64,000 nucleotides of DNA, taken from positions 6,852,001-6,916,000 of the forward strand of contig NZ_CP116413.1 in assembly GCF_030064675.1 (NCBI RefSeq), in the 5' to 3' direction. The notes beneath the pieces are model-generated. The model was given only the letters and a program-made list of their open reading frames with translations. It made no database searches and was not told where the DNA came from. Positions within the stretch are counted from its first letter, which is position 1. The number at the start of each line of letters is the position of its first letter. Source of the DNA: Crossiella sp. CA-258035 (lineage in GTDB: Bacteria > Actinomycetota > Actinomycetes > Mycobacteriales > Pseudonocardiaceae). Shown here in pieces: positions 7,829 to 44,882 of the stretch. A program made the translations under genes and the position numbers.

Positions 7829-8724
7829 GCCTGGTCTCCCTGCTTCGAGCGGTCACGGATGGCGTTGATGATGCCGGAGAAGTCGGTCCCGGCCCCACCC
7901 TCGGCGGCATAGGCGCGGAACAGCTCCGCGGTGTGCCGCCCCAGCGCGGTGTCCGTGCCGGTCTCGGCGGCCGCGGCCTCGGCCAGGCCGAGGTCCTTGA
8001 GCATCAGCGCGGTGGCGAAGCCGGGCTGGTAGTCCCGGTTGGCCGGGCTGCCGGGCACCGGGCCGGGCACCGGGCAGTTGGTGGTCAGCGCCCAGCACTG
8101 GCCGGAGGCGGTGGAGGCCACGTCGAAGAGCGCCTGGTGGGACAGGCCGAGCTTCTCCCCCAGCACGAACGCCTCGCTGACCGCGACCATGGAGATGCCC
8201 AGGATCATGTTGTTGCAGATCTTGGCGGCCTGCCCGGCTCCGGACTCGCCGCAGTGCACCGAGCGGCGGCCCATCAGCGCCAGGATCGGCTCCGCGCGGG
8301 CGAAGTTGTCGGTGGAGCCGCCTACCATGAAGGTCAGGGTGGCGGCCTGGGCGCCGACGACGCCCCCGGAGACCGGGGCGTCCAGTGCGGCGTGCCCGGC
8401 GTTCGCGGCTGCCTCGGCGGCCTGGCGGGCGGCGGCCACGTCGATGGTGGAGCAGTCCAGGAACAGGGTGCCCGGCTTGGCCTCGGGCAGGATCTCCCGG
8501 TAGCAGTCCAGCACGTGCGCGCCGCTGGGCAGCATGGTGATGACCACCTCGGCCGCCCGCACGGCCTGCACCGCGCTGCCCGCTGGGCTGACGCCCGCGG
8601 CTTCGGCGGCGTCCACCGCGGCGGCGACCGGGTCGTAGCCGTGCACGGTGTGCCCGGCCTTGACCAGGTTGGCGGCCATCGGGCCACCCATGTTGCCCAG
8701 GCCGAGGAATCCGATGACGGTCAT
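7825..8724 (-). CDS. mmsB: 3-hydroxyisobutyrate dehydrogenase
   Basis: A 299-residue enzyme oxidising 3-hydroxyisobutyrate to methylmalonate semialdehyde with NAD. It has the N-terminal Rossmann motif [12 protein letters not shown], the substrate signature DAPVSGG (about 116-122) and the catalytic lysine in [11 protein letters not shown] (K168). The ATG at 8724 overlaps the stop of the upstream hydrolase as ATGA. The frame stays open further upstream, but that lies inside the hydrolase gene. Confidence 0.95.
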
Positions 8725-9761
8725 GCCGAACCTCCGAACACGGGCTGCTGTCCTGGCTTCGGGGTGAAGTACTCCTCGACCGCGGCGTCGGCGACCTCGG
8801 CCAGGGTGGCCGGGTGCCAGGTCGGGTTGCGGTCCTTGTCGATGACCGCGGCGCGGATGCCCTCGGCCAGGTCCGGCGCGGTGAGGAACCGGCTGACCAG
8901 GCGGTGCTCCAGGTTCAGGCATTCCTCCACAGTGGACAGTCCGCGGGCGGTGCGCAGCGCGCGCAGGGCGACCTTGACCGCGGTGGGCGCCTTGGCCTGG
9001 ATCTCCTTGGCCGCTGCCTCGGCTCCCGGGTGCCCGCTGCCGTGCAGGTTGGCCAGGATCTGCTCGACGGTGTCGGCGGCGTAGCAGGAGTCGATCCACT
9101 CCCGGTCCTCGGCCAGCTGACCGGCGGGCGGGGTCTCCGCGCGGGCGGCGATCTCCACCAGCAGCTGCTCGGCGGGCAGTTCGGCCAGCTCGGGCAGGAC
9201 CGCGCTGGGCAGGTACTGGTCGGCCAGGCCGCACAGGATCGCGTCCGCGGCGCCGATCCGGCCGCCGGTGAGCGCGAGGTGGGTGCCCAGCTCGCCGGGC
9301 GCGCGGGAGAGCAGGAAGGTGCCGCCCACGTCGGGGATGAAGCCGATGGAGACCTCGGGCATGCCGATCGCGGTCCGCTCGGTGACCACCCGCACGCTGC
9401 CGTGCGCGGACACCCCGACCCCGCCGCCCATGACCAGGCCGTCCATGAACACCGCGTACGGCTTGGGGTAGTTCGCGATCAGCGCGTTGACCTGGTACTC
9501 CTCGCGCCAGAATCCGATCGGCCCGTCGGTGCCGTCCTGGATCGCTCGGTAGATCGAGCGGATGTCGCCACCGGCGCACAGGCCGCGTTCGCCCGCGCCG
9601 TCCAGCAGCACCGCGTGCACCGCGGCGTCGGTGGCCCACGAGGTGAGCGCCTTGCCCATCTCGCGCAGCATGTCATCGCTGAGCGCGTTGATCGCCCGCG
9701 GCCGGTTGAGCGTGATCCGGCCGACGCCGCCGGTGACCCTGATGAGGATGTCCTCGCTCAT
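8721..9761 (-). CDS. 3-hydroxyisobutyryl-CoA hydrolase
   Basis: A 346-residue member of the HIBCH branch of the crotonase family. Key features are CAGGDIRSIY, VMGGGVGVSAHG, and MPEVSIGFIPDVGG with the catalytic E136 and D144 typical of the hydrolase branch. It frees 3-hydroxyisobutyrate from CoA, the step between the hydratase and MmsB. Both ends overlap neighbours by 4 bp. The SxVE region carries a variant of the recurrent TCCAC(A/T)GTGG motif (8926-8937). Confidence 0.93.
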   Translation of the reverse strand: MSEDILIRVTGGVGRITLNRPRAINALSDDMLREMGKALTSWATDAAVHAVLLDGAGERGLCAGGDIRSIYRAIQDGTDGPIGFWREEYQVNALIANYPKPYAVFMDGLVMGGGVGVSAHGSVRVVTERTAIGMPEVSIGFIPDVGGTFLLSRAPGELGTHLALTGGRIGAADAILCGLADQYLPSAVLPELAELPAEQLLVEIAARAETPPAGQLAEDREWIDSCYAADTVEQILANLHGSGHPGAEAAAKEIQAKAPTAVKVALRALRTARGLSTVEECLNLEHRLVSRFLTAPDLAEGIRAAVIDKDRNPTWHPATLAEVADAAVEEYFTPKPGQQPVFGGSA

Positions 9762-10927
9762 CGGTCACCGCCCATCAGGCCGCGGGAGACGATGACCCGC
9801 ATGATCTCGTTGGTCCCTTCGAGGATCTGGTGCACCCGCAGGTCACGCACGATCTTCTCCACTCCGTACTCGGCGAGGTATCCGTACCCACCGTGCAGTT
9901 GCAGCGCGCGGTTCGCCACTTCGAAGCCGGTGTCGGTGGCGAAGCGCTTGGCCATCGCGCACAGCCGGGTGGCCTCGGGGTGGCGGGCGTCCAGCGCGGA
10001 GGCGGCCCGCCACAGCAGCAGCCGGGCCGCTTCCAGCTCGGTGCCCATGTCGGCCACGGTGAACCGCAGCGCCTGCTGCTTGCTCAGCGGCCCGCCGAAG
10101 GCGGTGCGCTGGCCGAGGTGCTCGATCGACTTGTCCAGCGCGGCCTGCGCGCCACCGAGGGAGCAGGCGGCGATGTTGATCCGCCCGCCGTCCAGGCCGG
10201 ACATGGCGATGCGGAAACCGTTGCCCTCGCCGCCGATCAGGTTGGCCGCGGGCACCCGCACCCCGTCCATGATCACCTGGCGGGTGGGCTGGGCGTTCCA
10301 GCCCATCTTCTGCTCGTTGGCGCCGAACTCCAGGCCCGGCGTGCCCTTCTCCACCGCGAAGGCGGACACCCCGCCCGCGCCCGGCCCGCCGGTGCGCGCC
10401 ATCACCAGGTAGAAGTCCGAGGACCCCGCGCCAGAGATGAACTGCTTGACCCCGGTGAGCACGTAGTCCTCCCCGTCGCGGACCGCGCTGGTGCGCAGCG
10501 CGGCGGCGTCGGAACCGGCGTCGGGCTCGGTGAGGCAGTAGCTGGCCAGCAGGTCCATCGAGACCAGGCCGGGCAGCCACGTGGCGCGCTGGGTCTCGTC
10601 GCCGAAGCGGTCCACCATGCCGGCGACCATGTTGTGGATGGACAGGTAACCGGCGATGGAGGGGCAGCCGGTGGCCAGCGACTCGAACACCAGCACCGCG
10701 TCCAGGCGGCTGAGCCCGGACCCGCCGTGCTGCTCGCCGACGTAGATGCCGCCCATGCCCAGCTGCGCGGCCTTGCGCAGCACGTCGACCGGGAAGTGCT
10801 TGCGCTGGTCCCAGTCCACCGCGTGCGGGGCCAGGTGCTCGGCGGCGAAGTCGGCGGCCATCTCCCGGATGGCGCGCTGGTCCTCGTTGAGCCCGAACAC
10901 GTCCGGCCGGATCTCCGAGATGGTCAT
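9758..10927 (-). CDS. Acyl-CoA dehydrogenase, probably isobutyryl-CoA specific
   Basis: A 389-residue flavin dehydrogenase with the FAD/substrate signatures CLTEPDAGSDAAAL and QLHGGYGYL, and the catalytic base in LEGTNEIMR (E370). It oxidises a short acyl-CoA to the 2-enoyl-CoA, passing electrons to ETF. Its place between mmsA and the HIBYL-CoA hydrolase gene argues for isobutyryl-CoA as substrate (ACAD8-like). It starts 4 bp after mmsA. Confidence 0.92.
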   Translation of the reverse strand: MTISEIRPDVFGLNEDQRAIREMAADFAAEHLAPHAVDWDQRKHFPVDVLRKAAQLGMGGIYVGEQHGGSGLSRLDAVLVFESLATGCPSIAGYLSIHNMVAGMVDRFGDETQRATWLPGLVSMDLLASYCLTEPDAGSDAAALRTSAVRDGEDYVLTGVKQFISGAGSSDFYLVMARTGGPGAGGVSAFAVEKGTPGLEFGANEQKMGWNAQPTRQVIMDGVRVPAANLIGGEGNGFRIAMSGLDGGRINIAACSLGGAQAALDKSIEHLGQRTAFGGPLSKQQALRFTVADMGTELEAARLLLWRAASALDARHPEATRLCAMAKRFATDTGFEVANRALQLHGGYGYLAEYGVEKIVRDLRVHQILEGTNEIMRVIVSRGLMGGDR

Positions 10928-31799: not shown

Positions 31800-32459
31800 G
31801 TGCCAGCCTCTCTCCAGCTGCTCGGTCAGTTCGCACTGCACGACGACCGGCCCCTGTCCACCACCCCCGTCTGCCGCAGGCTGCTCGCCTATCTGGCCCT
31901 GCGCGGGCACCCGGTCAGCAGAGCGGTCACCGCGGCGCAGCTGTGGCCGGACCTACCGGCGCAGCGGGCGCACGCCAGCCTGCGCACCACGCTGTGGCGG
32001 CTGACCGGGCGGGAGCTGGTGAGCGCCGGGCCCAGCGGCCTGGCGCTGGCCGGGACGGTGCGGGTGGACGTGCGCGAGGCGCACCGGCTGGCCGGGGACC
32101 CGGAGGCCGACATGGCGCTGTTCGAGCGGGACCTGCTGCCGGACTGGCCGGAGGACTGGCTGCTGCTGGACCGCGAGTGGTTCCACGAGCTGCGGCTGCG
32201 CGCGCTGGAGGCACTCGGCGAGGCGCACCTGTGCCAGGGCAGGCCGGTGCCGGCCTGGGCGGCGGCCACCGCGGTGGTGCGGGCCGAGCCGCTGCGGGAG
32301 AGCGGGCACCGGCTGCTGCTGCGGCTGCACCTGGCCGAGGGCAACGCGGCGGCGGCGCTGCGGCACTACGAGCGGTTCCGGCGGCAGCTGCGGGCCGAGC
32401 TGGGGGTCGCGCCCTCGCCCCGGCTGCACCGGTTGATCGCGCCGCTGGTGCGCGGTTGA
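31800..32459 (+). CDS. BTAD-domain (SARP-like) transcriptional regulator
   Basis: A 219-residue regulator. Residues about 1-85 form an OmpR-like winged helix (PVCRRLLAYLALRG, TAAQLWPDLP, HASLRTTLWRL). Residues about 90-215 form the bacterial transcriptional activation domain of TPR-like helices (ALEALGEAHLCQGR, RESGHRLLLRLHLAEGN). It lacks the ATPase domain of large SARPs. GTG start at 31800. It is divergent from the catalase operon, which it may control, or it may act on a metabolite cluster elsewhere. Confidence 0.88.
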   Translation: MPASLQLLGQFALHDDRPLSTTPVCRRLLAYLALRGHPVSRAVTAAQLWPDLPAQRAHASLRTTLWRLTGRELVSAGPSGLALAGTVRVDVREAHRLAGDPEADMALFERDLLPDWPEDWLLLDREWFHELRLRALEALGEAHLCQGRPVPAWAAATAVVRAEPLRESGHRLLLRLHLAEGNAAAALRHYERFRRQLRAELGVAPSPRLHRLIAPLVRG

Positions 32460-32509: not shown

Positions 32510-33118
32510 TCAGACCACGCGCTTGAGGTTGAGGCTGATGGTGTTGTCCGGGCCCGGGATCATGAAGTTGATCAGCAGCTCGGCCAGGTGGCAGTTGCTG
32601 AACTCCGGGATGGTGTAGGCGCCGCTGAGCTTGCCGCCGGTGAGCGGGTTGAAGCCCGGCTCACTGGTCAGGTCGATCGTCATCGGGGCCTTGCTCTGGC
32701 ACTTGTCCCCGACCGGGTAAGGGATGCCGCCTGCCTTCACATCGCGCAGCCGCAGCACCACCTGGGAGCTGGAGGTCACCACCCCGCGCACGATCTTGCC
32801 GGTGGTCTGCCCCTGCGGCAGGAACTCGATCGTCGCGGTGACCGGGATCAGGCCGAAGACCTTGAACTCCGAGTGTGCCGGCGGCAGCGTCAGGTCACCC
32901 TTGATGTCCCCGGTGGCCGCGTTGAGGTCGACCGACAGCGCGCCCGGCCCCAGCGGCAGGGTCGAGCCGGTCTTCTTGACCACGCTCTGCCCTTCCACCG
33001 AATAGTTGATTTTCACCGCCGGACCGGTCGGCTCGGCCGCCGCGCCACCGGCGAAGGTGACAACTCCGATCAGGGCCACCGCGAGCACCCGTAACGCCGA
33101 CTTACCCGATCTCCTCAT
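32510..33118 (-). CDS. Secreted module B protein associated with the mce locus
   Basis: A 202-residue secreted protein with a signal peptide (VLAVALIGVVTFAGGAAA). The mature part shares GDIKGDLTLPP, a LRDxKxGGxPxxVGxxC stretch and a YTIPxFxNC stretch with the C-terminal half of the fused protein at 41923-43176. The two conserved Cys suggest a disulfide-stabilised beta-sandwich. The ATG at 33118 follows GGAGGG by 7 nt; an earlier in-frame GTG at 33133 overlaps that ribosome site. It is cotranscribed with module A (44-bp gap). The molecular function is unknown. Confidence 0.85.
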   Translation of the reverse strand: MRRSGKSALRVLAVALIGVVTFAGGAAAEPTGPAVKINYSVEGQSVVKKTGSTLPLGPGALSVDLNAATGDIKGDLTLPPAHSEFKVFGLIPVTATIEFLPQGQTTGKIVRGVVTSSSQVVLRLRDVKAGGIPYPVGDKCQSKAPMTIDLTSEPGFNPLTGGKLSGAYTIPEFSNCHLAELLINFMIPGPDNTISLNLKRVV

Positions 33119-33162
33119 GGACATTCCCTCCACGGATCGAACTACGGAATTCGCATTCGCGC

Positions 33163-33798
33163 TTACCTGGCGGCGGTAACCGGAATCTTGGCCAGCAGCG
33201 GGTCCTGCCCGGCGTCCTGCTTGCAGACCAGGTCGAAGGTGCCCAGCTCGGTGGGCGAGCCGTCGGCCTTGCGCGGGGTGAGCTTGGAGACGTGGTCGCC
33301 CACGCTGACCCCGATGTGGCCGGGGGCGCGCACGCCGATCCCGGGCACCGGGCCGCGGGCCACCGTGACCAGGTCGCCGGTCTTGGGCACCGGGGTGCTC
33401 GGGATGCGCAGGCCGGGCAGGGTGACGTCGATCAGCGCGCCGTTGGCGTCCACCGCGAGCAGCGCCTCGGCGTCGCCCTCGATGGTCTCGGCCTCGAACA
33501 GCAGCAGGGCCTGGGCGGTCGCCTCGGGCACGGTGATGGTCGCGGAGAAGTTGGTGGTGCGCATGAGCTCGCCGACCTTGACCGTCTCCGGCATGGTGAC
33601 GTCGATCCTGGTGCTCAGCTGGGACGGGCCGATCAGCGGGAACTCGCAGGTGTAGGTGAGGGTCTTGGTGATCGGCCCGCTGGCGGTGGCGGGCGCGCTG
33701 GCCCCGGCGTCGGCGACCGCGCCGGTCAGCACCAGCGCGGCGGCGCCGAGGACGGCGGCGGCTCGTCGGGACAACCGTGCGGAGAATGCGGCTCTCAT
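33163..33798 (-). CDS. Secreted module A protein (DUF6801-like)
   Basis: A 211-residue secreted protein with a signal peptide (AAAVLGAAALVLTGAVADA). The mature domain begins ITKTLTYTCEFPLIGP and ends in a second conserved Cys (FDLVCKQDAGQDPLLAKIPV), both shared with the protein at 43180 and the N-half of the fusion at 41923. LTPRKADGSPTELGTFDL is identical in the two free-standing A proteins. The ATG at 33798 follows AAAGGAGA by 9 nt; an in-frame ATG at 33819 would put that site inside the gene. The DUF6801 name is from memory and tentative. Confidence 0.85.
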   Translation of the reverse strand: MRAAFSARLSRRAAAVLGAAALVLTGAVADAGASAPATASGPITKTLTYTCEFPLIGPSQLSTRIDVTMPETVKVGELMRTTNFSATITVPEATAQALLLFEAETIEGDAEALLAVDANGALIDVTLPGLRIPSTPVPKTGDLVTVARGPVPGIGVRAPGHIGVSVGDHVSKLTPRKADGSPTELGTFDLVCKQDAGQDPLLAKIPVTAAR

Positions 33799-33861
33799 GT
33801 CGGACGTCTCCTTTGACATCGAATCTCAGAGAGGGAACGGCTTATCCGCGGATGCCGCACA

Positions 33862-33895
33862 ACTTGCGACGAATCGGAGCCTACTCGCAAGTAGG
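33862..33895. promoter_or_regulatory. Palindromic operator and hairpin upstream of the A-B pair
   Basis: CCTACTCGCAAGTAGG (33880-33895) has 6-bp arms around a 4-bp centre, 82 bp before the module A start. It matches 13 of 16 positions of the site at 43948-43963. ACTTGCGA (33862-33869) and TCGCAAGT (33885-33892) also form an overlapping 8-bp inverted repeat. The size suits a TetR-type dimer. Confidence 0.6.
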
Positions 33896-34006
33896 TAACG
33901 TCACAAGAAATTCACTGCCCCTTCTGTGAACCGATCACAGAAACGTACTCCGGTGATAATTCAAGCCAACGTGCCACGGTGTTGTTTTGTCATCTGAATG
34001 CAGTCC

Positions 34007-34717
34007 TCAGCGCGGTTGTAGTTCGGTGATCAACCATTTTTCGCCGGCGCGGCGGGCGGTGACGCCGAGCTGGGCGGCCGAGGCGGAGGTCTGGTTGTTG
34101 TCGCCGCGGGTGGCGGTCTGGTCCAGGAAGACCAGCAGCACCGCCCGGTCGGCCGACAACTCCCGGACCCCGGTGGTGACCGCCTTGGTGGACAGGACCA
34201 GCTTCTGCTGCGGGGCCTGCTCGCGCACCTGGGCGAACAGCGCGTCGTACTGCGCCCGCGCGGCGTCCACCAGCACCTCGGCCGCGGCCGCCTCGGTGCT
34301 CGCGGTGTCGTCGTGCCGGTAGGAGAACACCCGGCGCAGCGCCTCGGCCACCTGACCGGAGACCTCGGCCGTGGCCGGTCCGTTGACCAGGGCCTGGTTG
34401 CGCGCGGCCGGGCTGCCGCTGGTCCGCCAGCCCTGCACCAGGAAGAACCCGGCCAGCAGCGCGAGCGCGACGGTGAGCGCGACCAGCCAGCGTCCCGCCC
34501 GGGGTGGCCGGGACCGGACCCGTTCCGCGACAACAGGTTCGGCCCCGGCCTCGTCCACCGCGGTGGCTTCGTCGGCCGCCGCGGCAGCGCGGGTCCCCGT
34601 CTCTTCCAGCGCGCCGGTGTCGCTGTCCCGGCCGGGTCGCGCGGGGTGCGTGGTGCGGCTGCCGGCCACCGCGGGCCTGCGGCGGTGCGGGGCGGCGGCG
34701 CGTCGGGTGGGAGCCAT
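34007..34717 (-). CDS. Mce-associated membrane protein (second copy)
   Basis: A 236-residue protein. An Arg/Pro/Ala-rich cytoplasmic lead (about 1-75) is followed by one membrane helix (WLVALTVALALLAGFFLVQGW) and a periplasmic domain with the AGEKWLITELQP ending of Mas proteins. It starts 11 bp after the previous mas gene and closes the operon. Mas proteins are thought to stabilise or assist Mce complexes. Confidence 0.8.
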   Translation of the reverse strand: MAPTRRAAAPHRRRPAVAGSRTTHPARPGRDSDTGALEETGTRAAAAADEATAVDEAGAEPVVAERVRSRPPRAGRWLVALTVALALLAGFFLVQGWRTSGSPAARNQALVNGPATAEVSGQVAEALRRVFSYRHDDTASTEAAAAEVLVDAARAQYDALFAQVREQAPQQKLVLSTKAVTTGVRELSADRAVLLVFLDQTATRGDNNQTSASAAQLGVTARRAGEKWLITELQPR

Positions 34718-34728
34718 CAGAGGTCCTT

Positions 34729-35262
34729 TCAGGAGGCCGCGACCGGGACCGGACCGAGCCCGCTGAGCTTCCAGCCGGTCTCGGTGCGGGTCAGCTCGGC
34801 CTGGAACCGGTTGCGCTTGGTGGTGGCCGCGGCCCCGTCCGGGGCGACCTCGATCTCCACCGCGGCGATCAGCTTCGCCTTGCCCGCGCGGTCGTCCAGC
34901 TCGGTGACGGCGGCGTCGGTGACCCGCCCGGTGGTGACCGTCTTGGTCTCCTCGATCTGCTTCTTGCTGCTGGCCCCGGTGTTGCGCAGCTCCTCGTGCA
35001 GCGCGCCGGTGGAGGTCTCCAGCCAGCGGCGCATGCCCTCGTCCACCCGCCGGTAGTCCAGGCTGTTGAACTCCGCCACCGCCCGCTCCCCCGCGCCGCG
35101 CACCTGCTCGCGCAGCTCGGCGAACTTGACGCCGTCGTCCTCGGCGGCGGCGTACCACCACCAGCCGGACCCGGCGGCCAGCAGCGCGGCGGCCACCGCG
35201 AGGATCACGGGCAGCCGCAACGGGTTCCGGCGTGCGGTGGCCGGTTCGACTGTCTCGCTCAT
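34729..35262 (-). CDS. Mce-associated membrane protein (first copy)
   Basis: A 177-residue protein with one N-terminal helix (LPVILAVAAALLAAGSGWWWYAA) and a periplasmic domain ending TRTETGWKLSGLGPVPV, the usual Mas organisation. Its ATG overlaps the mceF stop (35259-35262). Confidence 0.85.
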   Translation of the reverse strand: MSETVEPATARRNPLRLPVILAVAAALLAAGSGWWWYAAAEDDGVKFAELREQVRGAGERAVAEFNSLDYRRVDEGMRRWLETSTGALHEELRNTGASSKKQIEETKTVTTGRVTDAAVTELDDRAGKAKLIAAVEIEVAPDGAAATTKRNRFQAELTRTETGWKLSGLGPVPVAAS

Positions 35263-36476
35263 CGGTCTCCTCCCGGCAGGCCGAGCAAGCCGCGCAGGGT
35301 GGCGGTGTCCGGACTCAGGCTCTCCAGCTGTGCGGGTTGCCAGTTCGAGGTGGCGGCCGCGGCGACCTTGCCGCCCTTGGGCGCGTTCTGCGATCCCCTC
35401 ACCCCGGTGGGGTGGCCGCGCGGCAGGGTGCAGGCGGCCTGGGTGTTCAGCGGCTTGCCCGGGGTGGCGACCAGGCCGTTGCGGTACTCGGTGCCCTCGT
35501 AACCCTGGGTGCAGGGCAGCGGGTTGAAGTAGGTGGTGGTCATGCCGAAGTGCGCGCCGTCGGCCCGGGCCACCGTGCTGCCCGCGGCGACCGCGGCCGG
35601 CGCGGTGAACAGCACCTGCTCCAGCCCGGCGTTGCGGGTGACCATCACGTTGGCCGTGGTCAGCAGGTTCGCGATGACCACGCCGAGGTTCGGCCCGGTC
35701 TCCCGCAGCACGGCGGAGACCTGGTCGGAGACCGGCGGCACCGCGGCCACCACCTTGCGGAAGTCGCCGTCGGAGGCCCGGAACTGCTGGGCCAGCAGCT
35801 TGGCGTTGCGGGTGAGGTCCTTGAGCGCCTGGGACTGCTCGGCCTGGGTGTCCAGCACGGTGCGGCCGTCGGTGAACAGCTGCTTGGTCTGCGGCAGGTG
35901 CTCGATCGCGGCCTCGGTGAAGGAACCGGCGGAGTCCAGGATCTGCTGGAGGTTGCGGCCGGAGTCGGTGAACGCGGTGCCCAGCTCGTCCACCACGGTG
36001 CGCAGCGACTTGGTGGGCACGGAGGAAACGAGGCCGTCCACCGCGGCCAGCACGTGCTCCACCGGCTTGGGAATCCTGGTGTCGCTCTGGCCGATCACCG
36101 AGCCCTGGGCCAGGTACGGGCCGCCGTCGCGGCGCGGGCGCAGGTCCACGAACTGCTCGCCGACCGCGGACCGGTTGCTCACCACGGCCTGCGCGTCGGC
36201 GGGCACCTGGGGGCCGTCGTCGTCCAGGACCAGGTCGACCTCCACGCCGCGGGCGGTCAGCCGCAGCGGGCCGACCCGGCCGATCGGCACGCCGCGGTAG
36301 GTGACCTCGGCGTTGGTGAAGATGCCGCCGGAGTCGGCCAGCTGCACCCGCACGGTGTAGCCAGCGTAGCCGAACCAGCGGTCCAGTCCGGCGTAGCGGG
36401 CGCCCACGTAGGACACCCCGACCAGGGCGACCAGCACGAAGATGCCGATCTGCCAGCGGATTCGCGCGGAGAGCAT
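35259..36476 (-). CDS. mceF: MCE family protein, MceF position
   Basis: A 405-residue protein with an N-terminal anchor (IRWQIGIFVLVALVGVSYVGA), one MlaD/Mce domain (about 38-120, with VTYRGVPIGRVGPLRL and SAVGEQFVDL) and a long helical stretch expected to form part of the lipid-conducting tube. Its start overlaps the mceE stop by one base. Assigned to F by order and by the lack of a lipobox. Confidence 0.9.
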   Translation of the reverse strand: MLSARIRWQIGIFVLVALVGVSYVGARYAGLDRWFGYAGYTVRVQLADSGGIFTNAEVTYRGVPIGRVGPLRLTARGVEVDLVLDDDGPQVPADAQAVVSNRSAVGEQFVDLRPRRDGGPYLAQGSVIGQSDTRIPKPVEHVLAAVDGLVSSVPTKSLRTVVDELGTAFTDSGRNLQQILDSAGSFTEAAIEHLPQTKQLFTDGRTVLDTQAEQSQALKDLTRNAKLLAQQFRASDGDFRKVVAAVPPVSDQVSAVLRETGPNLGVVIANLLTTANVMVTRNAGLEQVLFTAPAAVAAGSTVARADGAHFGMTTTYFNPLPCTQGYEGTEYRNGLVATPGKPLNTQAACTLPRGHPTGVRGSQNAPKGGKVAAAATSNWQPAQLESLSPDTATLRGLLGLPGGDR

Positions 36477-37576
36477 CAGCGCACCCCCGTCGAGACCGCG
36501 GGCACGCCGTCCACCGGCGGCAGCGGCAGCACCGGCTTCGCCGCGTTGTCCGGTTTTGGCTGGATCCGCTGTGGTTGTTGCTGTGCCTCAGGTCCTGGGT
36601 CCTTCACGTGCAGGGTGAGGTAGGTGTTGAGGTAGTCGCCCTTGATCGCGTTGAGCGCGGCGTCCGGGAACGGGTAGGTGAACAGGATCTCCAGCGACTG
36701 CGGCAGGTTCTGCCCCGCCTCCACCAGCCGTTGCAGGATCGGTTGCAGCGCCTTGAGATCGGCCACGAAGTCGTCCTTGCTGCGCCGCACGGTGTCCACC
36801 GCGACCTTGCCCATCTTGTCCAGCGCGGCCAGCATCGCCACCATCGACTCGCGCTGCTCGTGGAAGACCTGGAGGCCGGGACCGAGGTCGGTGATGGCCT
36901 TGTCGATCTGCCCGGTCCGCCCGGCCAGCACGGTGTTGAGCCGGTTCATCCCGTCCAGGGCCTTGGTCAGGCTCTCCTTGTTCTGGTCCAGCTGGGTGAC
37001 GAACTTGTCCATTGTGGACAGCAGCGCCTTGAGCTGGGCCTCGTTGCCGTCGAAGGCCGAGGCCAGCTCGCGGCTGATGTCCCGCAGCTGCTGCACTCCG
37101 CCGCCGTTGAGCAGCAACGACAACGCGCCGAAGACCTCTTCCACCTCGGGGTTGCGGTTGGTCCGGCTGACCGGGATCACCGCCCCGTCGGCCAGCACCG
37201 CGGTGTCCGCCCCCTGCTCGCTCGGCCGGGCCAGCTCCACGTACTTCTCGCCCAGCAGGCTGGACTGCCGCAACCTGGCCAGCGCCGCGGCGGGCAGCTT
37301 CACCTGTCCGTTGACCGCGACCGTGACGTCCACCGTGCGTCCGTCCTCGGCCAGCTCGATCCGCTCCACCTTGCCCACCGCGACGTCGTTGACCTTCACC
37401 GCGGCCTGCGGCACCAGGTCCAGCACATCCCGGAACTGCGCGGTGACCCGGTACGGCCGCTCGCCGAGGTCCGCGCCACCGGGCAGCGGCAGGTTGTACA
37501 GCCCGTCGAACCCGCCGACGCCGCACCCGGTGGCCAGCAGCGCGACCGCGCCCAGGGCCAGGATCTGTCTGCGCAT
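36476..37576 (-). CDS. mceE: MCE family lipoprotein, MceE position
   Basis: A 366-residue Mce protein with a lipobox (LLATGCG), the mark of MceE. The Mce domain holds VKVNDVAVGKVERIEL and SSLLGEKYVELARP, followed by a long coiled helical region. The ATG at 37576 overlaps the mceD stop (TGATG); a GTG directly upstream (37579) could also serve. The GTCCATTGTGGAC variant lies at 37007-37019. Confidence 0.92.
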   Translation of the reverse strand: MRRQILALGAVALLATGCGVGGFDGLYNLPLPGGADLGERPYRVTAQFRDVLDLVPQAAVKVNDVAVGKVERIELAEDGRTVDVTVAVNGQVKLPAAALARLRQSSLLGEKYVELARPSEQGADTAVLADGAVIPVSRTNRNPEVEEVFGALSLLLNGGGVQQLRDISRELASAFDGNEAQLKALLSTMDKFVTQLDQNKESLTKALDGMNRLNTVLAGRTGQIDKAITDLGPGLQVFHEQRESMVAMLAALDKMGKVAVDTVRRSKDDFVADLKALQPILQRLVEAGQNLPQSLEILFTYPFPDAALNAIKGDYLNTYLTLHVKDPGPEAQQQPQRIQPKPDNAAKPVLPLPPVDGVPAVSTGVR

Positions 37577-38664
37577 CACCGTTCTCCTGCCGGGAGGGTG
37601 TGCAGGTCGCCGACCACCGGCAGCGGCAGCACGGGCAGCTTCTTGGCGTCCGCGCCGGTGGCGACCGGCACCAGGCGGGTCTTGGCCTTCGGCGAGAGCT
37701 CGAGCAGGTTGACCCGGCCGTCGATGACCCGCTGCTCCGGGTTGTAGGCGTTGAGCAGGTTGGTCATCGCCAGCGGGGCCACGTCCAGGGCCTCGGCCAG
37801 TGCGGAGCGCTGGTCGGCCAGCACCTTGGTGATCCCGGTCAGTTTGTCCACTGTGGACTTGACCCGGCCGCGGTGCTCGCCGATGAACTCCCCGACCTGG
37901 CCGAGCGCGGCGGGCAGCTCGGCCAGCGCGGCGCGCAGCGCGTCCCGGTCGGCGGCCAGGAAGCGGGTGACCTCGGCCAGCTGCTGTTCGGCCGCGACCA
38001 CCTGGTTGTCGTTGCGGGCCAGCATGCCGGTGAACTTGGCCAGGTTGTCCACAGTGCCGAACACGTCCTGCTGCGAGCCGTCCAGGGTCTTGGCGGCCTG
38101 GCCGAGGTCGCGGAACAGCTTGTTCAGCGCGGCCCCGTTGCCTTCCAGGTTGGCCGCGCCGGTCTCCAGCAGGCTGGAGAGCGCGCCCTGTTTGTTGGCC
38201 CCGTTGGGTCCCAGCGCGGTGGCCAGCTTCTCCATGCTCTCGTAGAGCTGGTCCAGCTCCACCGGGCTGGCGGTGCGCTCGACCGGGATCACCGCGCCGT
38301 CGGCCAGGGTCGGCCCGCCGCGGTAGACCGGGGCGAGCTGGAGGTAGCGGTCGGAGACCAGGCTGGGCGCGACCGAGACCACCTTGGCCTCCGCGGGCGC
38401 CTTCACCCCACTGTCCAAAGTGAACTCGACCCGGACGCGTTGTCCTTGCGGCTCAACGGAGTCGATGGTGCCGACCCGCACCCCGAGCATCCGCACGTCG
38501 GATCCGGCGTACACGCCGACCGCGGCGGCGAACCAGGCGGTGGCCCGCACCCGCTCGGCGCTGCCGCGCCACCACCACACCCCGGCCACCCCGGCGACCA
38601 GGGCGAGCACCGCCACCCCGATCAGCACCCGGGTTCCCCTGCCACGACTGCGGAACCAGCTCAT
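37576..38664 (-). CDS. mceD: MCE family protein, MceD position
   Basis: A 362-residue protein with a membrane anchor (VLIGVAVLALVAGVAGVWWW), an Mce domain (VRMLGVRVGTIDSVEP, SVAPSLVSDRYLQLAP) and helical repeats, ending in LPLPVVGDLHTLPAGER. Its start overlaps the mceC stop (ATGA). It contains a GTCCACTGTGGAC motif (37846-37858). Confidence 0.9.
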   Translation of the reverse strand: MSWFRSRGRGTRVLIGVAVLALVAGVAGVWWWRGSAERVRATAWFAAAVGVYAGSDVRMLGVRVGTIDSVEPQGQRVRVEFTLDSGVKAPAEAKVVSVAPSLVSDRYLQLAPVYRGGPTLADGAVIPVERTASPVELDQLYESMEKLATALGPNGANKQGALSSLLETGAANLEGNGAALNKLFRDLGQAAKTLDGSQQDVFGTVDNLAKFTGMLARNDNQVVAAEQQLAEVTRFLAADRDALRAALAELPAALGQVGEFIGEHRGRVKSTVDKLTGITKVLADQRSALAEALDVAPLAMTNLLNAYNPEQRVIDGRVNLLELSPKAKTRLVPVATGADAKKLPVLPLPVVGDLHTLPAGER

Positions 38665-39650
38665 TTGCCGCCTCCCTTGGGTGGCACGCAGCCCTCTTCG
38701 CCGGAGACCGGCGCGAGCAGGCCGCACATGTAGCTGTCCACCCACCGGCCGTTGCCGGCCGCGTTGTTGATCAGCCGGTAGTACGGCCCGGACAGCGAGA
38801 GCGCCTTGTTCAGGTTGTCCTGGTTGCGCTGCAACACCGCGGCCACCTTGTCCAGCCGGTCCAGCGCGGGCCCGAACTGGGCCTTGTTGTCCTGCACCAG
38901 CCCGGTCAGCTCCCTGGACAGGTCGCGGATGCCGGTGAGCAGCTTGCTGATCGCCTCCCGCCGGTTGCGCACCTCCGTCAGGAGCTTGTTGCCGTCGGCG
39001 AGCAGGGTGGCGATCTGGGAGTTGCGGTCGCTGAGCGTCTGGGTGATCTTGCGGCTGTTCTCCAGCACCTTGGCCAGCTCCAGGTCCCTGGAGGCGATGG
39101 TGGTGGACAGCGCGGACATCCCGTCCAGTGCCTTGCGCACGTGCTCCGGCGAGTCGCGGAAGGTCTCGGAGAGCACCGAGAAGCTCTGCGCGAGCTGCTG
39201 GGTGTCGATCTGGCCGATGGTGTCGGTCAGGCCCTGGAAGGCGTCACTGATGTCGAACGGGGTGCTGGTGCGCTCCCTGGGGATCGGCGTGTCCCCGTCC
39301 AGGCTGCCGCCGCCCTGCGGGTCCAGCGCCAGGTACTTCTGGCCCAGCAGCGTCTTGATCCGGATGGACGCGCCGGTCTTGTCGCCGAGCTCCACGCCGG
39401 AGACCTTGAACCGCACCGCGACCCGGTCCCCGGCCAGCTCGACCGCGCTGACCGCGCCGACCTTGAGCCCGGAGACCCGGACCTCGTCGTCGGGCTTGAT
39501 CCCGGCCGCCTCGGTGAACTCCGCGGTGTAGCTGGAGCCGCCGATCATCGGCAGGTCCTCGAAGAAGAAGGTGGCCAGCACCGCGATCCCGATCGTGGTC
39601 AGGCCTGCCAGGCCGACGGTGATCGGGTTGCGTTCCCGGAAGGGCTTCAT
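38661..39650 (-). CDS. mceC: MCE family protein, MceC position
   Basis: A 329-residue protein with an anchor (VGLAGLTTIGIAVLATFFF), an Mce domain (EVRVSGLKVGAVSAVEL, LLGQKYLALDPQG) and a helical arm, with two Cys near the C-terminus (YMCGLLAPVSGEEGC). The ATG at 39650 overlaps the mceB stop; an ATG three codons upstream is less likely. Confidence 0.9.
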   Translation of the reverse strand: MKPFRERNPITVGLAGLTTIGIAVLATFFFEDLPMIGGSSYTAEFTEAAGIKPDDEVRVSGLKVGAVSAVELAGDRVAVRFKVSGVELGDKTGASIRIKTLLGQKYLALDPQGGGSLDGDTPIPRERTSTPFDISDAFQGLTDTIGQIDTQQLAQSFSVLSETFRDSPEHVRKALDGMSALSTTIASRDLELAKVLENSRKITQTLSDRNSQIATLLADGNKLLTEVRNRREAISKLLTGIRDLSRELTGLVQDNKAQFGPALDRLDKVAAVLQRNQDNLNKALSLSGPYYRLINNAAGNGRWVDSYMCGLLAPVSGEEGCVPPKGGGK

Positions 39651-40666
39651 CCCTTGCACCTTTCGTGGGTGAGCGGGATCCCGACCGGCGGCCCGCCGGG
39701 CGCGGGGGGCACCCCTGGCGCGGAAGCCGAGCAGAGGAAGAAGTTGAACCAGGAGCCGTAGGAGCCGATCCGGCCGATCGCCTCGAACTTGGTGGGCAGC
39801 CGGTCCAGGAACTCCGTCAGCAGCTTCGGTTGCTCCATCAGGTTCCCCGACAGCGCGCCGAGTCCGGCGATGTCGGCCTTGAGCGGGGCGCGCGCCTTGT
39901 TCAGCAGGTCCGCGGTGGCCCCGGTCAGCTCGGACATCGAGCCGATCGCCTCGCCGATCGGCTTGCGGTCCGCGGCCAGTCCGCTGACCAGCTTCTGCAT
40001 GGTGCCGATCAGGTTCGCCAGCTGGTCGCCGCGGGAGTTGACCGTGCCGAGCACGGTGTTCAGGTTGTTGATCAGGTCGCCGATCACCTTGTCCTTGGCC
40101 GCGATGGTCGAGGTGAGCGAGGCGGTGCGGGCGAGCAGGCTGTCCACCGTGCCGCCTTCCCCTTGCAGCACCTGAACGATCTCGTAGGACAGCTTGTTCA
40201 CGTCATCGGGGTTCAGCGCCTGGAACAGCGGCTTGAACCCGTTGAACAGCAGGGTGAGATCCAGCGCGGGCGTGGTGCGCTCCAGCGGGATCTGCCCCTC
40301 CGGCGGCAGCGTCGCGGTGGTGCCCGCGCCCTGGTCCAGGGCCAGGTAGCGCTGGCCGACCAGGTTGCGGTAGCGGATGGCGGCGGTGGCCGAGGCGAAG
40401 ATCCGCCGCCTGCCCTCGACGGAGAACTGCACCTCGACCACCCCCCGGCCGGCCAGTCGCAGTCCCTCGACCTTGCCGACCCGGACCCCGGACATGCGCA
40501 CGTCGTCGCCCTCGTTGAGCGAGGTGACGTCGGAGAAGCGCGCGGTGTAGAAGTTCGCGCCCACCGCGGTGGTGTTGGAGATGGTCACCGCGAGCAGGGC
40601 GGTGACCAGCACGGTGAGCACGGCGAAGACGCTGAACTTGAGCAGTGGCGCGGTGACTCCCCTCAT
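39647..40666 (-). CDS. mceB: MCE family protein, MceB position
   Basis: A 339-residue protein with an anchor (FSVFAVLTVLVTALLAVTI), an Mce domain (DVRMSGVRVGKVEGLRL, YRNLVGQRYLALDQG) and a helical arm ending in FFLCSASAPG. The start overlaps the mceA stop (40663-40666). Confidence 0.9.
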   Translation of the reverse strand: MRGVTAPLLKFSVFAVLTVLVTALLAVTISNTTAVGANFYTARFSDVTSLNEGDDVRMSGVRVGKVEGLRLAGRGVVEVQFSVEGRRRIFASATAAIRYRNLVGQRYLALDQGAGTTATLPPEGQIPLERTTPALDLTLLFNGFKPLFQALNPDDVNKLSYEIVQVLQGEGGTVDSLLARTASLTSTIAAKDKVIGDLINNLNTVLGTVNSRGDQLANLIGTMQKLVSGLAADRKPIGEAIGSMSELTGATADLLNKARAPLKADIAGLGALSGNLMEQPKLLTEFLDRLPTKFEAIGRIGSYGSWFNFFLCSASAPGVPPAPGGPPVGIPLTHERCKG

Positions 40667-41913
40667 TTCAGGGTCACCTCCGTTCCCCGGTAGATCGCGC
40701 CGAGCAGCACGCCGCTCCAGGACGGCACCGCATCGGGGGTGCGGCCGAGCGCGGGCGCGAGCAGCTGGGCGAGCAGTTGGCTCTCCTGTGGCGAGTTGGC
40801 CAGGCCGAGGTCGGCGGTGTCCCCGCTGACCGGCAGCGCGACCGCCTTGCCGCCGCTGGGCGGGCTGCCGAAGGGGTAGCAGCGGGGGCCGCCGCGGGCG
40901 TTGTAGACCGGATCGTCCTTGCCCGGCTGGTACTCCCCGCGCGAGGGCACCGGGTGCAGGTGCACCTTCAGGCCCGGCCGATCGGTGCCCGCGCCGAAGG
41001 CGGAGTTCATCACCGACTTGAACTTGGTCAGCGTGTCGGCCATGCAGGGCCAGGACGGCGAGTACTTGGCCATCGTCTCCAGGGTGGACCTGCTGGCGTC
41101 GGAGAGCCGGATCACGTTGTCCTTGTTGGCGCGCAGGAACCCGCCGAGGTCGTTGGCGGTGGCGCCCAGGCTGCGGTACAGCAGCTTCAGGTTCTCCCGC
41201 TGCTCGACGAAGGTCCTGGTGGTGACGGTGAGGTCGCTGAGCGCGTCCAGCGCGTCCGGGATCGCGGTGCTGTAGGTGTCGGCCACCTTGACCAGCTCGC
41301 GCATGCCCTCGGTGAGCGCGGGCACCTCGGGGTTGATCTCGGTGAGGTAGTGCTCCAGCCGCACCAGGTTCTGCCCGAGCGCCTTGCCTCGGTTGGCCAG
41401 GGCGGCCGACATCGCGCCGAGGGTGACCGAGAGCTTGTGCGGCTGCACCGCCTCCAGCATCGGCATCAGGTTGGCCAGCAGGCGTTCCAGCTCGATCGCG
41501 GTGGCCGAGCGGTCCTGCCCGATCACGTCGCCCGCGCCGAGGGTGTCGCCGGTTCCGTTGTCCGGCAACATCAACGCGACGTAGCGCTCACCGAAGAGGG
41601 TCTTGGGCAGCAGCCGGGCGGAGACGCCCTTGGGGATGAGCTCCAGCTTGTCCGGCTGCATGGCCAGCTCCAGCTCGGCGCCCTCGCCCCGGCTGGAGAT
41701 GCGTTTCACCGAGCCGACCACCAGCCCGCGCACCTTCACGTCGGACTCGGTCATCAGCTGGTTGCCGACGTGGTCGGTGCGCAGCAGCACGCTGACCGCG
41801 GAGCTGAAGTCGCCGCGGTAGACCGCGACGGTCAGGCCCAGCAGCAGCGAGATGATCACCAGGAACAGCAGGCCGAGCAGGCGGCCCCTGAGCACGTGCG
41901 GGTTCGGCGGCAT
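40663..41913 (-). CDS. mceA: MCE family protein, MceA position
   Basis: A 416-residue protein, first of six Mce paralogues. It has an anchor (LLGLLFLVIISLLLGLTVAVY), an Mce domain (DVKVRGLVVGSVKRI, LLPKTLFGERYVALML), and a long C-terminal extension with a Cys pair (WPCMADTL and PRCYPFG). It starts 9 bp after the A-B fusion gene rather than after yrbE permease genes. The Mce hexamer is known in other actinobacteria to import sterols or lipids with an MlaE-type permease and MceG ATPase; both must be encoded elsewhere. Confidence 0.92.
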   Translation of the reverse strand: MPPNPHVLRGRLLGLLFLVIISLLLGLTVAVYRGDFSSAVSVLLRTDHVGNQLMTESDVKVRGLVVGSVKRISSRGEGAELELAMQPDKLELIPKGVSARLLPKTLFGERYVALMLPDNGTGDTLGAGDVIGQDRSATAIELERLLANLMPMLEAVQPHKLSVTLGAMSAALANRGKALGQNLVRLEHYLTEINPEVPALTEGMRELVKVADTYSTAIPDALDALSDLTVTTRTFVEQRENLKLLYRSLGATANDLGGFLRANKDNVIRLSDASRSTLETMAKYSPSWPCMADTLTKFKSVMNSAFGAGTDRPGLKVHLHPVPSRGEYQPGKDDPVYNARGGPRCYPFGSPPSGGKAVALPVSGDTADLGLANSPQESQLLAQLLAPALGRTPDAVPSWSGVLLGAIYRGTEVTLK

Positions 41914-41922
41914 CGGCGGGCC

Positions 41923-43176
41923 TCACTCATATCCGAGGAAGGTGAGGGTCAGGTTCAACGTGTTGCCGGGCCCGGAGATCAGTCCGGTCAGCAGCGAGTC
42001 CAGCGGCTCGGTGACACCGCAGTTGCCGAAGGGCGGGATGGTGTAGGTCGCGCTCATCGGGGTGGGCCTGGTGGGCAGGAACGGCGGTGGCGGCGGGGCC
42101 GAGACCAGGTCGATCACCGCGGGTTCCACGGTCTTGCAGTTCGGTCCCACGTCCAGGGGCACGCCGCCGACCTTGATGTCGCGCAGCTTGATGAACATCT
42201 TCGAGGTCGCCTTCACCTGGCCGCGTTCGATGATGCCCGCCACCTGGCCGACCGACTCGAACTCGATCACCGAGTTGTTGGGCACGAACCGGAACAGCAC
42301 GAAGTAGCCCTTCGACGGCGGCAGGGTGAGGTCGCCCTTGATCTCGCCGACCGGCAGTTTGATGATCACCTCGGTGAGCATCTCGCCGGGGCCGATCTTG
42401 ACCTCGGACTCCATCTTCTTGATCCGGGACACCCCGTCGACCTTGTACCGGATCCGCCGGGCGAGCGGCCCCATCTGCTGGTCCTCGCCCGCGCCCGGCA
42501 CGGTGGATCCGGTGCTGGGCACCGGTTTGCCGCCGGTGGTGGGCACCGGCAGGGTGCCGCTGGCGCCGGGCACGGTGGTCAGGTTCCGCCCGGTGACCGG
42601 GAGCTTGACCAGCTGGGCGTCCTGCCCCTCGTCCTTGGCGCACTTGAGGTTCAGCGGCGGTCCGTCGTCGGTGGCCGAGCCAAGGGTCAAGCTCAGCTCG
42701 GTCGCGGTGACGGTCAGGTCGCCGGGTTTCGCCGGGGTGAGCGCGGGGGCCTTGCCGGTGGCGACGACCTTCAGCTCACCCTTCTCCGGCACCTCGGTGG
42801 CCGGGATGCCCAGCTCCTCGGCGGTGACCGCGGCCGAGAGTCCCGCGCCGTTGACGGCGAGGCCGAGAGCGGCGGTGCCGATCACCGACTTCGCGCCGCC
42901 GAGGGCGGGCAGCACCGTCTCCGGCAGGGTCGCGGTGACGGTGAGGGCGGACTGGACCGGCGCGCCGACCGAGCCCGAGGCCGGGAACACGCCCGCGACC
43001 TCGGTGACCACCGCCTGGGCGGTCAGCTCCGGCGCGGTGCAGGTGTAGGCGATCCGGCGGGCTGTCGATTCGGCGGCCGCGCTGCCGTCGCCGACAAGGG
43101 AGACGCCGAGTGCCGGCACCAGCAGCGCCGCGGCCGCGAGGGCCCCGAGCCGGTGCGCCGATCCAGTCCGGGTCAT
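41923..43176 (-). CDS. Secreted A-B fusion protein at the head of the mce operon
   Basis: A 417-residue secreted protein with a signal peptide (LGALAAAALLVPALGVSLV). Residues about 40-220 correspond to module A: RRIAYTCTAPEL, then LNLKCAKDEGQDAQLVKLPV. A Thr/Gly/Pro linker (about 225-245) leads to module B: GEIKGDLTLPP, LRDIKVGGVPLDVGPNC, YTIPPFGNC. It has both domains that occur as separate genes at 33163 and 32510, strong evidence that A and B work together. The start is 3 bp after the preceding stop. The biochemical role is unknown; lipid capture outside the cell is an inference from context. Confidence 0.85.
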   Translation of the reverse strand: MTRTGSAHRLGALAAAALLVPALGVSLVGDGSAAAESTARRIAYTCTAPELTAQAVVTEVAGVFPASGSVGAPVQSALTVTATLPETVLPALGGAKSVIGTAALGLAVNGAGLSAAVTAEELGIPATEVPEKGELKVVATGKAPALTPAKPGDLTVTATELSLTLGSATDDGPPLNLKCAKDEGQDAQLVKLPVTGRNLTTVPGASGTLPVPTTGGKPVPSTGSTVPGAGEDQQMGPLARRIRYKVDGVSRIKKMESEVKIGPGEMLTEVIIKLPVGEIKGDLTLPPSKGYFVLFRFVPNNSVIEFESVGQVAGIIERGQVKATSKMFIKLRDIKVGGVPLDVGPNCKTVEPAVIDLVSAPPPPPFLPTRPTPMSATYTIPPFGNCGVTEPLDSLLTGLISGPGNTLNLTLTFLGYE

Positions 43177-43179
43177 CTG

Positions 43180-43800
43180 CTACTTCCTCGCCGCGGCGAC
43201 CGGGATCTCGCCGAGCTTGAGGTCCTGCCCCGGCTTCTCCGTGCAGGGCAGGTCGAAGGTGCCCAGCTCGGTCGGCGAGCCGTCGGCCTTGCGCGGGGTC
43301 AGCTTGGCGTCGAACCCGCCGCTGACGATTGCCTCGGCCTGACCGGGGTTGTCCACCGTGGTCGGCGGGACGTCGCCGGTGGCGGGCACGGTCAGGTCAC
43401 CGGTGTCCGGGATCGGGGTGGACGGCACGGTCATGCCGTTGATGTCGACCGTCTTGCTCACCCCGGCCGCGTCCTTGACGTCGAAGTGCGCGACCGCGGA
43501 GCCGTCCAGGGTCTTGGCCTCGAACAGGTCGAAGGCCTCCACGATCCGTTCCGGCACCAGCACGCTGACCTTGAAGTCGGTGGCCTGCGCGGGCTGGCCG
43601 ACCACGGCCGAGTCCGGCAGGTTCACCGAGATGGTCACCTGGAGCTCGTCCGGGCCGATCAGCGGGAACTCGCAGGTGTAGGTCAGGGTCTTGGTGACCG
43701 GCACCGCCTGCGCGACCCCGGCGCCGACTGCGGCGAGGGCCAGGCCGGCGAGCACGGCTGTGGTCCGAGTCAAGATGGTGGTCAAGTGGCGTCGAGCCAT
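43180..43800 (-). CDS. Secreted module A protein (DUF6801-like), first gene of the mce operon
   Basis: A 206-residue secreted protein with a signal peptide (TAVLAGLALAAVGAGVAQA). The mature domain starts VTKTLTYTCEFPLIGP and ends FDLPCTEKPGQDLKLGEIPV, parallel to the protein at 33163, with LTPRKADGSPTELGTFDL identical. ATG start at 43800. It is promoter-proximal in a run of ten same-strand genes (43800 to 34007), mostly overlapping or only a few bases apart. Confidence 0.85.
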   Translation of the reverse strand: MARRHLTTILTRTTAVLAGLALAAVGAGVAQAVPVTKTLTYTCEFPLIGPDELQVTISVNLPDSAVVGQPAQATDFKVSVLVPERIVEAFDLFEAKTLDGSAVAHFDVKDAAGVSKTVDINGMTVPSTPIPDTGDLTVPATGDVPPTTVDNPGQAEAIVSGGFDAKLTPRKADGSPTELGTFDLPCTEKPGQDLKLGEIPVAAARK

Positions 43801-43963: not shown

Positions 43964-44114
43964 TTACTGTCGTGTGTCATAGCTAGGCAAGAACCAAACC
44001 GAGGAAACTCCCCCAAGAGGCCAACATTTCCCCAGTTTTGTCACCACCCTGACAATTCACTCCGCCGAACGTGCTCACCAGGGCACCAAGTTCCGGGGTC
44101 AAGTTGTCAGCGCA
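43964..44114. other. Non-coding stretch between the mce promoter and an MFS pseudogene
   Basis: No gene is seen. It is less GC-rich than the surroundings. TTGTCA at 44038-44043 and TGACAA at 44050-44055 form a 6-bp inverted repeat that could belong to a promoter. Confidence 0.4.
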
Positions 44115-44801
44115 TCAAAATAATGACCCGATGGAGTGATGAGGGCGCACCCATTCCCCGGCATAGGCGTTTGCGATACCGCCGAAATACGCCGTCGCTT
44201 GGGCTGAACGCCCGGCTTCCGCTGCCGACAACGGCCGCGCCACCGACTCCAGGGACTTGCCGGCGGCCTCCACCCCGAGCACCAGCTCGGCCACGCCGGG
44301 TCCCCGGTCTCCACCAGCGCGCCGAACAGCGAAGGCCCGATGATGCCGCCCAGTCCGGTGCCCACCGAGTAGAACAGCGCGATGGCCATCGCCCTGATCT
44401 CCATCGGGAAGATCTCCAAGACGGTCAGGTAGGCCGCGCTGGCCCCGGCCGAGGCGAAGAAGAACACCGCGGACCAGGCCAGGGGCAGCCCGGTCGCGGA
44501 CAGCGCGCCGTTGCCGAACAGCGCGGCGGTGCCCACCAGCAGCAGCCCGGAGCCGAAGGAGAACGCGGTCAGCACGGTGGCGATGAGGTAAAGCACCAGG
44601 GTGAGCAGGAACAGCTTCTTGCGGCCGAACCGGTCGGTCAGGTAGCTGAAGACCAGCGAGCCGAGCACCGCGCACCGTGCCCAGCCCGAGCAGCACCACC
44701 CAGTGCCAGCGCGCCCACGGCAGCCGGTCCAGCCGCGCCGGAATGGCCGTCCCCACCTCGCCGGCCGCCTGCCGCGGCCGCTGCTCGTCACCGAGACGCA
44801 C
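44115..44801 (-). pseudogene. Decayed MFS (sugar/metabolite symporter type) transporter
   Basis: Recognisable MFS pieces lie in order but in different frames: IPARLDRLPWARWHWVVLLGLGTV, then after a frame change and loss of about 50 residues FSYLTDRFGRKKLFLLTLVLYL, then after a much larger internal loss AVFFFASAGASAAYLTVLEIFPME and GLGGIIGPSLFGALVE, then a second frame change to a C-terminal tail with SLESVARPLSAAEAG. At most about half of a normal 450-residue transporter remains, and no single frame is intact. It is clearly non-functional as a transporter. Confidence 0.85.
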
Positions 44802-44882
44802 GACAGCCCGGATACCCGGTGGATCACCAACTACTCCCCGCTGGTGACCAGGTCAGCCGGGTAAGGCACGATCGGGGGCACC

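Follow-up and report, generated by a model that had tools for sequence, protein, structure and literature searches.

The question raised by this locus is what a group of small, apparently secreted proteins, encoded on both sides of an mce gene cluster of Crossiella sp. CA-258035, has to do with the Mce system. The DNA analysed (contig NZ_CP116413.1, positions 6,852,001 to 6,916,000; 64,000 nucleotides, the whole of which is called the window) encodes two modules, A and B, both as separate proteins and joined in one polypeptide. Mce systems are major lipid importers and are best known from mycobacteria. A functional tie of A and B to these systems is likely, given their genomic linkage, their fusion and the short gaps between the genes; the fuller reading, in which both are secreted accessories to some of the actinobacterial Mce systems and probably handle lipids outside the cell, is favoured on balance and held less firmly.

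The cluster is transcribed from the minus strand in the order A1, A-B fusion, mceA to mceF, two Mas-type genes, A2 and B. Intergenic gaps are 3 bp between A1 and the fusion gene, 9 bp between the fusion gene and mceA, and 29 bp between A2 and B. Three A and two B domains flank six mce and two Mas-type genes, and A1 and the fusion gene run straight into mceA. All four open reading frames (ORFs) named in a preceding sequence-only reading of the window were found in place on the minus strand (206, 417, 218 and 207 amino acids, aa). The features, in window coordinates and order of transcription, are:

43180..43800, minus strand: A1, stand-alone secreted DUF6801 protein whose gene opens the string, 206 aa (PF20611, E 4e-44; Cys43 and Cys186 of the precursor; model m8d6a6b2cc024, residues 33-206)
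41923..43176, minus strand: A-B fusion, 417 aa (module A at 42595-43053, PF20611, E 1.5e-19; module B at 41941-42456)
40663..41913, minus strand: mceA (Mce4_CUP1, E 1.1e-68; MlaD, E 3.7e-12)
39647..40666, minus strand: mceB (MlaD match)
38661..39659, minus strand: mceC (MlaD match)
37576..38745, minus strand: mceD, as the listed ORF, with the true start possibly further in (MlaD match)
36476..37579, minus strand: mceE (MlaD match)
35259..36476, minus strand: mceF (MlaD match)
34729..35262, minus strand: first Mas-type (mce-associated) protein, 177 aa (phmmer hits at further Mce loci, among them L023, 1e-32, and L024, 1.4e-26, of the same genome)
34007..34717, minus strand: second Mas-type (mce-associated) protein, about 236 aa with the start deduced from the reading frame (phmmer hits at further Mce loci: L098, 1.1e-49; L111, 1.3e-44; L168, 7e-42)
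33163..33819, minus strand: A2, second stand-alone secreted DUF6801 protein, 218 aa (PF20611, E 2.8e-39)
32510..33133, minus strand: B, stand-alone secreted module B, 207 aa (Cys145 and Cys181 of the listed ORF, C110 and C146 in the aligned fragment; model mdc1d50200450)

Six MlaD-domain (PF02470) matches above the cut-off correspond to six Mce proteins in tandem. The Mas-type genes lie between mceF and A2 and were recognised by phmmer matches to genes of other Mce loci; the name Mas was taken from PMC1810536 and not from a domain model.

Module A was identified as a member of the Pfam family DUF6801 (PF20611): all three window copies scored above the gathering cut-off of 26 (135.2, 71.1 and 151.0 bits). 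The Pfam entry lists the function as unknown. The motifs quoted in the sequence-only reading are present, including LTPRKADGSPTELGTFDL, which is identical in both stand-alone A proteins, and the claim that A and B occur both apart and fused was borne out by BLASTP. A2 matched A1 (52 % over 172 aa, E 6e-54) and the first half of the fusion protein (33 %, E 2e-17), and B matched its second half (41 % over 187 aa, E 6e-38); A/A and B/B scores lay 18 to 57 standard deviations (SD) above the mean of 300 shuffles. The idea that A and B are sequence-detectable copies of each other was rejected, with 1.8 SD for A1 against B and 0.5 SD for the two halves of the fusion (300 shuffles). For module B, the window protein matched no Pfam family at E ≤1, and 65 B domains searched against Pfam gave just two single matches (E 0.078 and 0.088), neither of them convincing. 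No NCBIfam model came close to its cut-off for the A and B proteins, and sequence searches of the PDB, including the fusion protein and a B profile, gave no convincing relative. In the literature searched, outside which most subscription papers lie, no paper naming DUF6801 was found; none dealt with both Crossiella and mce, and broader searches returned nothing on the A/B proteins.

The N-termini of the four window A/B proteins look signal-like, as judged by eye. None of the four contains tryptophan, and each module has exactly two cysteines, which are conserved at ≥90 % across 58 A domains and invariant across 65 B domains. A conserved cysteine pair in a secreted protein fits a disulphide.

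A second A/B locus of the same genome (L022) lies at 5.02 Mb, 1.9 Mb from the window cluster, and carries a second A-B fusion (L022:12448-13728) and a second B (L022:10554-11735). No mce genes were found there within the 19.5 kb examined; the A/B genes lie 1.8 kb from a secretory lipase gene (PF03583, 1.7e-53). Fusion as a local accident was dismissed on account of this second fusion and of the family loci, in which A and B in one frame are the commonest state (76 of 194 A/B frames).

Occurrence was surveyed in 120 genomes of the family Pseudonocardiaceae. DUF6801 was present in at least 58 of them (26 of 46 genera), module B in at least 55 (25 of 46 genera), and one or the other, as read off the match listings, in at least 62. 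A sample of the class (296 genomes) held B in 19 and DUF6801 in 20, and a sample of the order (249 genomes) held B in 33. Two genomes of another family of the order, G414 and G437, each showed 14 module B matches on contig 1, many of them close together, which is a marked expansion.

Whether A and B lie mostly far from mce operons, the question that the sequence-only reading had put to a genome survey, was answered in favour of proximity: 44 of 49 B-only, 50 of 76 A-B and 41 of 69 A-only frames of the family loci lie within 10 kb of Mce or YrbE genes. By position alone some 1-4 % per gene would be expected there for 3 to 10 operons per 8-Mb genome, a figure that depends on these assumed operon numbers and genome size. 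The counts cover the window, L022 and 100 regions (L093-L192) from 59 genomes. Left outside the fetched set were the A/B-bearing genomes G011, G110 and G119, most of G045, the places G107:C22, G054:C1, G008:C6, G100:C4:503821, G078:C47 and G027:C1:7015348, and the counterparts of the L022 locus that G055, G086 and G108 carry. Since the regions were at most 20 kb long and some were shortened by contig ends, the linked counts are lower bounds; since related genera share ancestry, they are not independent. A linked B copy was found in 48 of the 53 genomes with B, the exceptions being G008, G045, G049, G078 and G100.

The link extends beyond the family, with 11 of 18 class-level B loci linked, one of them only to YrbE at 7.6 kb; this count leaves out two unlinked G045 loci (L211 and L212) of the same family as the window. 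Among 39 loci with named hosts 20 were linked, namely 12 from Pseudonocardiaceae, 3 from Streptomyces and 5 from Actinomadura. In 79 of 87 linked loci (duplicates included) A/B is co-directional with an Mce/YrbE domain, in 31 of them within 300 bp; the other eight are linked only on the opposite strand. A-B and yrbE are adjacent gene calls in L100 and L120, and in L111 an ABC ATPase gene stands between A-B and YrbE. Placement relative to the Mce genes varies (upstream, downstream, divergent or on both sides), and several groups can be told apart among the linked MceA proteins.

Structure prediction, which had been proposed together with the profile search, gave confident models. For A1 (residues 33-206) AlphaFold returned a mean predicted local distance difference test score (pLDDT) of 96.6 and a predicted template modelling score (pTM) of 0.88, and for B 94.0 and 0.85; both models consist almost entirely of strands, with one helix each. 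The sole PDB match of A by Foldseek at E ≤1e-3 was 3lso, a putative membrane-anchored protein of Corynebacterium diphtheriae (1.1e-4, template modelling score (TM) 0.52), followed by ApaG, arrestins, RhoGDI, adhesin repeat domains and other sandwich folds. The first match of B was DynF (6ubl; E 2.5e-3, probability 1.00), and after it came mostly outer-membrane, fluorescent-protein and other barrels. DynF, in the parts of PMC8725005 consulted, is described as a barrel of eight strands that encloses palmitic acid. It resembles B in being all-beta and of similar size, and differs in belonging to a biosynthesis cluster; with 13 % identity, TM 0.41 and a root-mean-square deviation of 7.1, the match is weak and is a likeness of predicted shape rather than demonstrated common descent. 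The Foldseek matches suggest a sandwich for A and a barrel for B, a suggestion about shape that says nothing of a ligand.

Homologues of the L022 secretory lipase numbered 20 across all loci examined and 18 after two near-duplicate loci had been dropped. Their distance to the nearest A/B domain had a median of 0.73 kb and a maximum of 3.6 kb. When the lipases were placed at random within these loci, the medians averaged 3.3 kb; the observed median was reached in 0.01 % of trials and the observed maximum in 0 of 20000. The test includes the seed locus L022, its kin L070 and L115, and L167, which is kin of L104, so that the 18 lipases are not independent. Around unlinked A/B loci 255 neighbours were found and 114 were chosen by hand, among which PucR regulators (9), secretory lipases (8) and AMP-binding enzymes (5) are the commonest of the 25 families listed out of 89. 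One of the eight lipases at least was a deliberate choice, since that of L022 was put in manually; beyond the lipase distance test these family counts have no matched background set, and the gene calls around A/B come from a simple caller based on GC content at third codon positions (GC3) and are partly wrong.

Several further neighbours were recorded. At L022 a PucR-type regulator gene (8617-10047, plus strand), similar to genes at other loci, is followed by a gene for a T4-like tail tube gp19 protein (PF06841, 1.2e-16; 10054-10647, minus strand), which adjoins the second B gene; PF06841 accounts for 3 of the 114 chosen neighbours. In the window, a partial MFS transporter gene (243 aa, 44099-44830, minus strand) that covers only part of its family model lies upstream of A1, and the gene calls of the relative locus L116 give no gene at this position. 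A short gene for a BTAD-domain (SARP-like) regulator (31800-32459, plus strand) is convergent with B.

Taken together, the lipase link and the fold match of B point to lipid handling as the most likely activity of A and B, and linkage, fusion and short gaps make a functional tie to Mce likely. A number of observations pull the other way. No Mce or YrbE gene was found in 45 of 101 family loci (window and L093-L192) or in 19 of 39 named loci, some in either set being cut by contig ends; the latter include B-only loci of Knoellia, Rhodococcus and Williamsia. At class level 7 of 18 B loci are unlinked, and in the family loci 28 of 69 A-only and 26 of 76 fusion frames have no mce gene within 10 kb. 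A/B accompany only a minority of mce operons: in the family sample 107 of the 120 genomes together contain 565 YrbE genes, or about 280 pairs, against 39 fetched A/B loci that include YrbE. The fold matches are weak, with none for B and one for A at E ≤1e-3, and lipase-bearing loci are few, 13 of the 74 unlinked and 6 of the 87 linked ones (named and unnamed duplicates included). As most Mce operons of the family are without A/B, the modules mark a subset. Among the matches listed for the 13 family genomes without YrbE, one genome (G102) has A and one (G011, 74 % complete) has B. Since A and A-B genes also occur away from mce, some of them beside a secretory lipase, neither module is strictly a Mce part. 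The earlier proposal that A and B may be extracellular parts of Mce lipid uptake is borne out in part: the association with Mce recurs across genera and gene orders, and a direct share in lipid uptake is a hypothesis.

The sizeable share of A and A-B genes away from mce, the tight clustering of lipase homologues around A/B and the PucR, lipase and AMP-binding genes near Mce-free loci would also suit general secreted lipid handlers, which partner extracellular lipases and stand near mce through shared lipid use, with no contact with Mce. We consider this explanation rather unlikely: Mce linkage is far commoner than the lipase, which is missing from most loci of either kind, and the 3-bp and 9-bp gaps in the window and the adjacent A-B and yrbE calls of L100 and L120 indicate shared transcripts. 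A wall or surface scaffold for the Mce assembly, which binds no lipid itself, would agree with the broad PDB matches of A (the Corynebacterium membrane-anchored protein, ApaG, arrestins and adhesin repeat domains) and with the existence of frames with two A (11 of 194) or two A and one B (9 of 194); it appears improbable in view of the first match of B, which, though weak, is a fatty-acid-binding barrel. Inherited gene order devoid of functional meaning could draw on the many loci from related genera, whose counts are not independent. Order and strand vary, however, and yet the association holds in several MceA groups and reaches Streptomyces and Actinomadura, and the eight opposite-strand loci speak against it too, so that this explanation is very hard to credit.

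If A and B are accessory proteins of a subset of Mce systems, as we prefer, the A-B unit, once secreted, would hold or present a hydrophobic substrate outside the membrane, such as fatty acids released by the secretory lipases that accompany other A/B loci, and would pass it to the Mce assembly. In the window, the cluster of A, A-B, six Mce and Mas genes has no yrbE and may use a YrbE pair and an ABC ATPase encoded elsewhere.

The sequence-only reading had called this cluster a complete mceA-F operon. The six mce genes are indeed there; that the usual preceding yrbE pair is absent had escaped notice. The genome (9.17 Mb, one contig, 99.28 % complete) contains three sets of six Mce genes by PF02470 and four YrbE (PF02405) matches, all of them at the two other mce loci and none ahead of the window mceA. 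The window cluster is therefore without permease genes of its own. An assembly gap was ruled out by the single contig, the completeness and the same state in four other genomes of the genus. In all, 13 sampled family genomes show the yrbE-less state, all five of the genus Crossiella and eight of other genera; each has two or four YrbE genes, none in the fetched yrbE-less loci. Since related operons that bear yrbE are often ordered A, A-B, YrbE, YrbE, Mce (L062, L100 and, with a double A, L120), the most economical account is that the yrbE pair was lost, in one or two events. A MceA tree of 73 rows, 13 of them yrbE-less, gave two changes, and a single clade for the yrbE-less rows was not rejected (approximately unbiased test (AU), p 0.14). 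For this tree 80 rows were reduced to 74 by removing identical ones, among them L112, a duplicate of the Goodfellowiella row L063, which was itself dropped for a branch length of 10. An ABC ATPase gene lies directly upstream of the YrbE pair at 8.55 Mb of this genome (L024:12725-13846; ABC_tran, 2.7e-27); this ATPase and a shared YrbE pair may power the yrbE-less cluster.

In the parts of Casali and Riley 2007 (PMC1810536) consulted, an mce operon is made up of two yrbE genes and six mce genes, and Mas proteins and an ATPase, Mkl, go with it. The window cluster shares the six tandem Mce and two downstream Mas-type genes, and differs in lacking the yrbE pair, in opening with A and A-B and in closing with A and B; those parts mention no DUF6801- or B-like protein. 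Accessory factors beyond the eight-gene core have a precedent in LucA and LucB of mycobacterial Mce, which are transmembrane according to the consulted parts of the Mce1 structure preprint (PMC9882608), whereas A and B have the look of secreted proteins and their genes belong to the cluster; those parts make no mention of an A- or B-like protein.

A wider proposal can be put forward tentatively, as a possibility more doubtful than the accessory role. A and B would capture substrate outside the cell for the Mce importers of actinobacteria that lack a mycolate outer membrane: lipases would free fatty acids there, A-B would carry them to the outer end of Mce, and one or two lineages would have dropped their own permease pair, so that A/B and Mce would serve as an exchangeable front end for a common YrbE-ATPase base. 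No genome of the f2 code (same order) was among the matches listed for B in the class and order samples, and at least 18 f2 genomes of the class sample had no match; f2 is presumably a mycolate-bearing family, which is our guess only. Rhodococcus and Williamsia bear mycolates, and their B-only copies unlinked to Mce count against the proposal.

DUF6801 and the unnamed family B thereby gain a concrete, testable context: two small, apparently soluble and confidently folded candidate Mce partners of soil actinobacteria, encoded with the transporter genes. They bear on the question of how substrate reaches Mce importers from outside, and Mce clusters without permease genes of their own raise the question of permease sharing between Mce assemblies.

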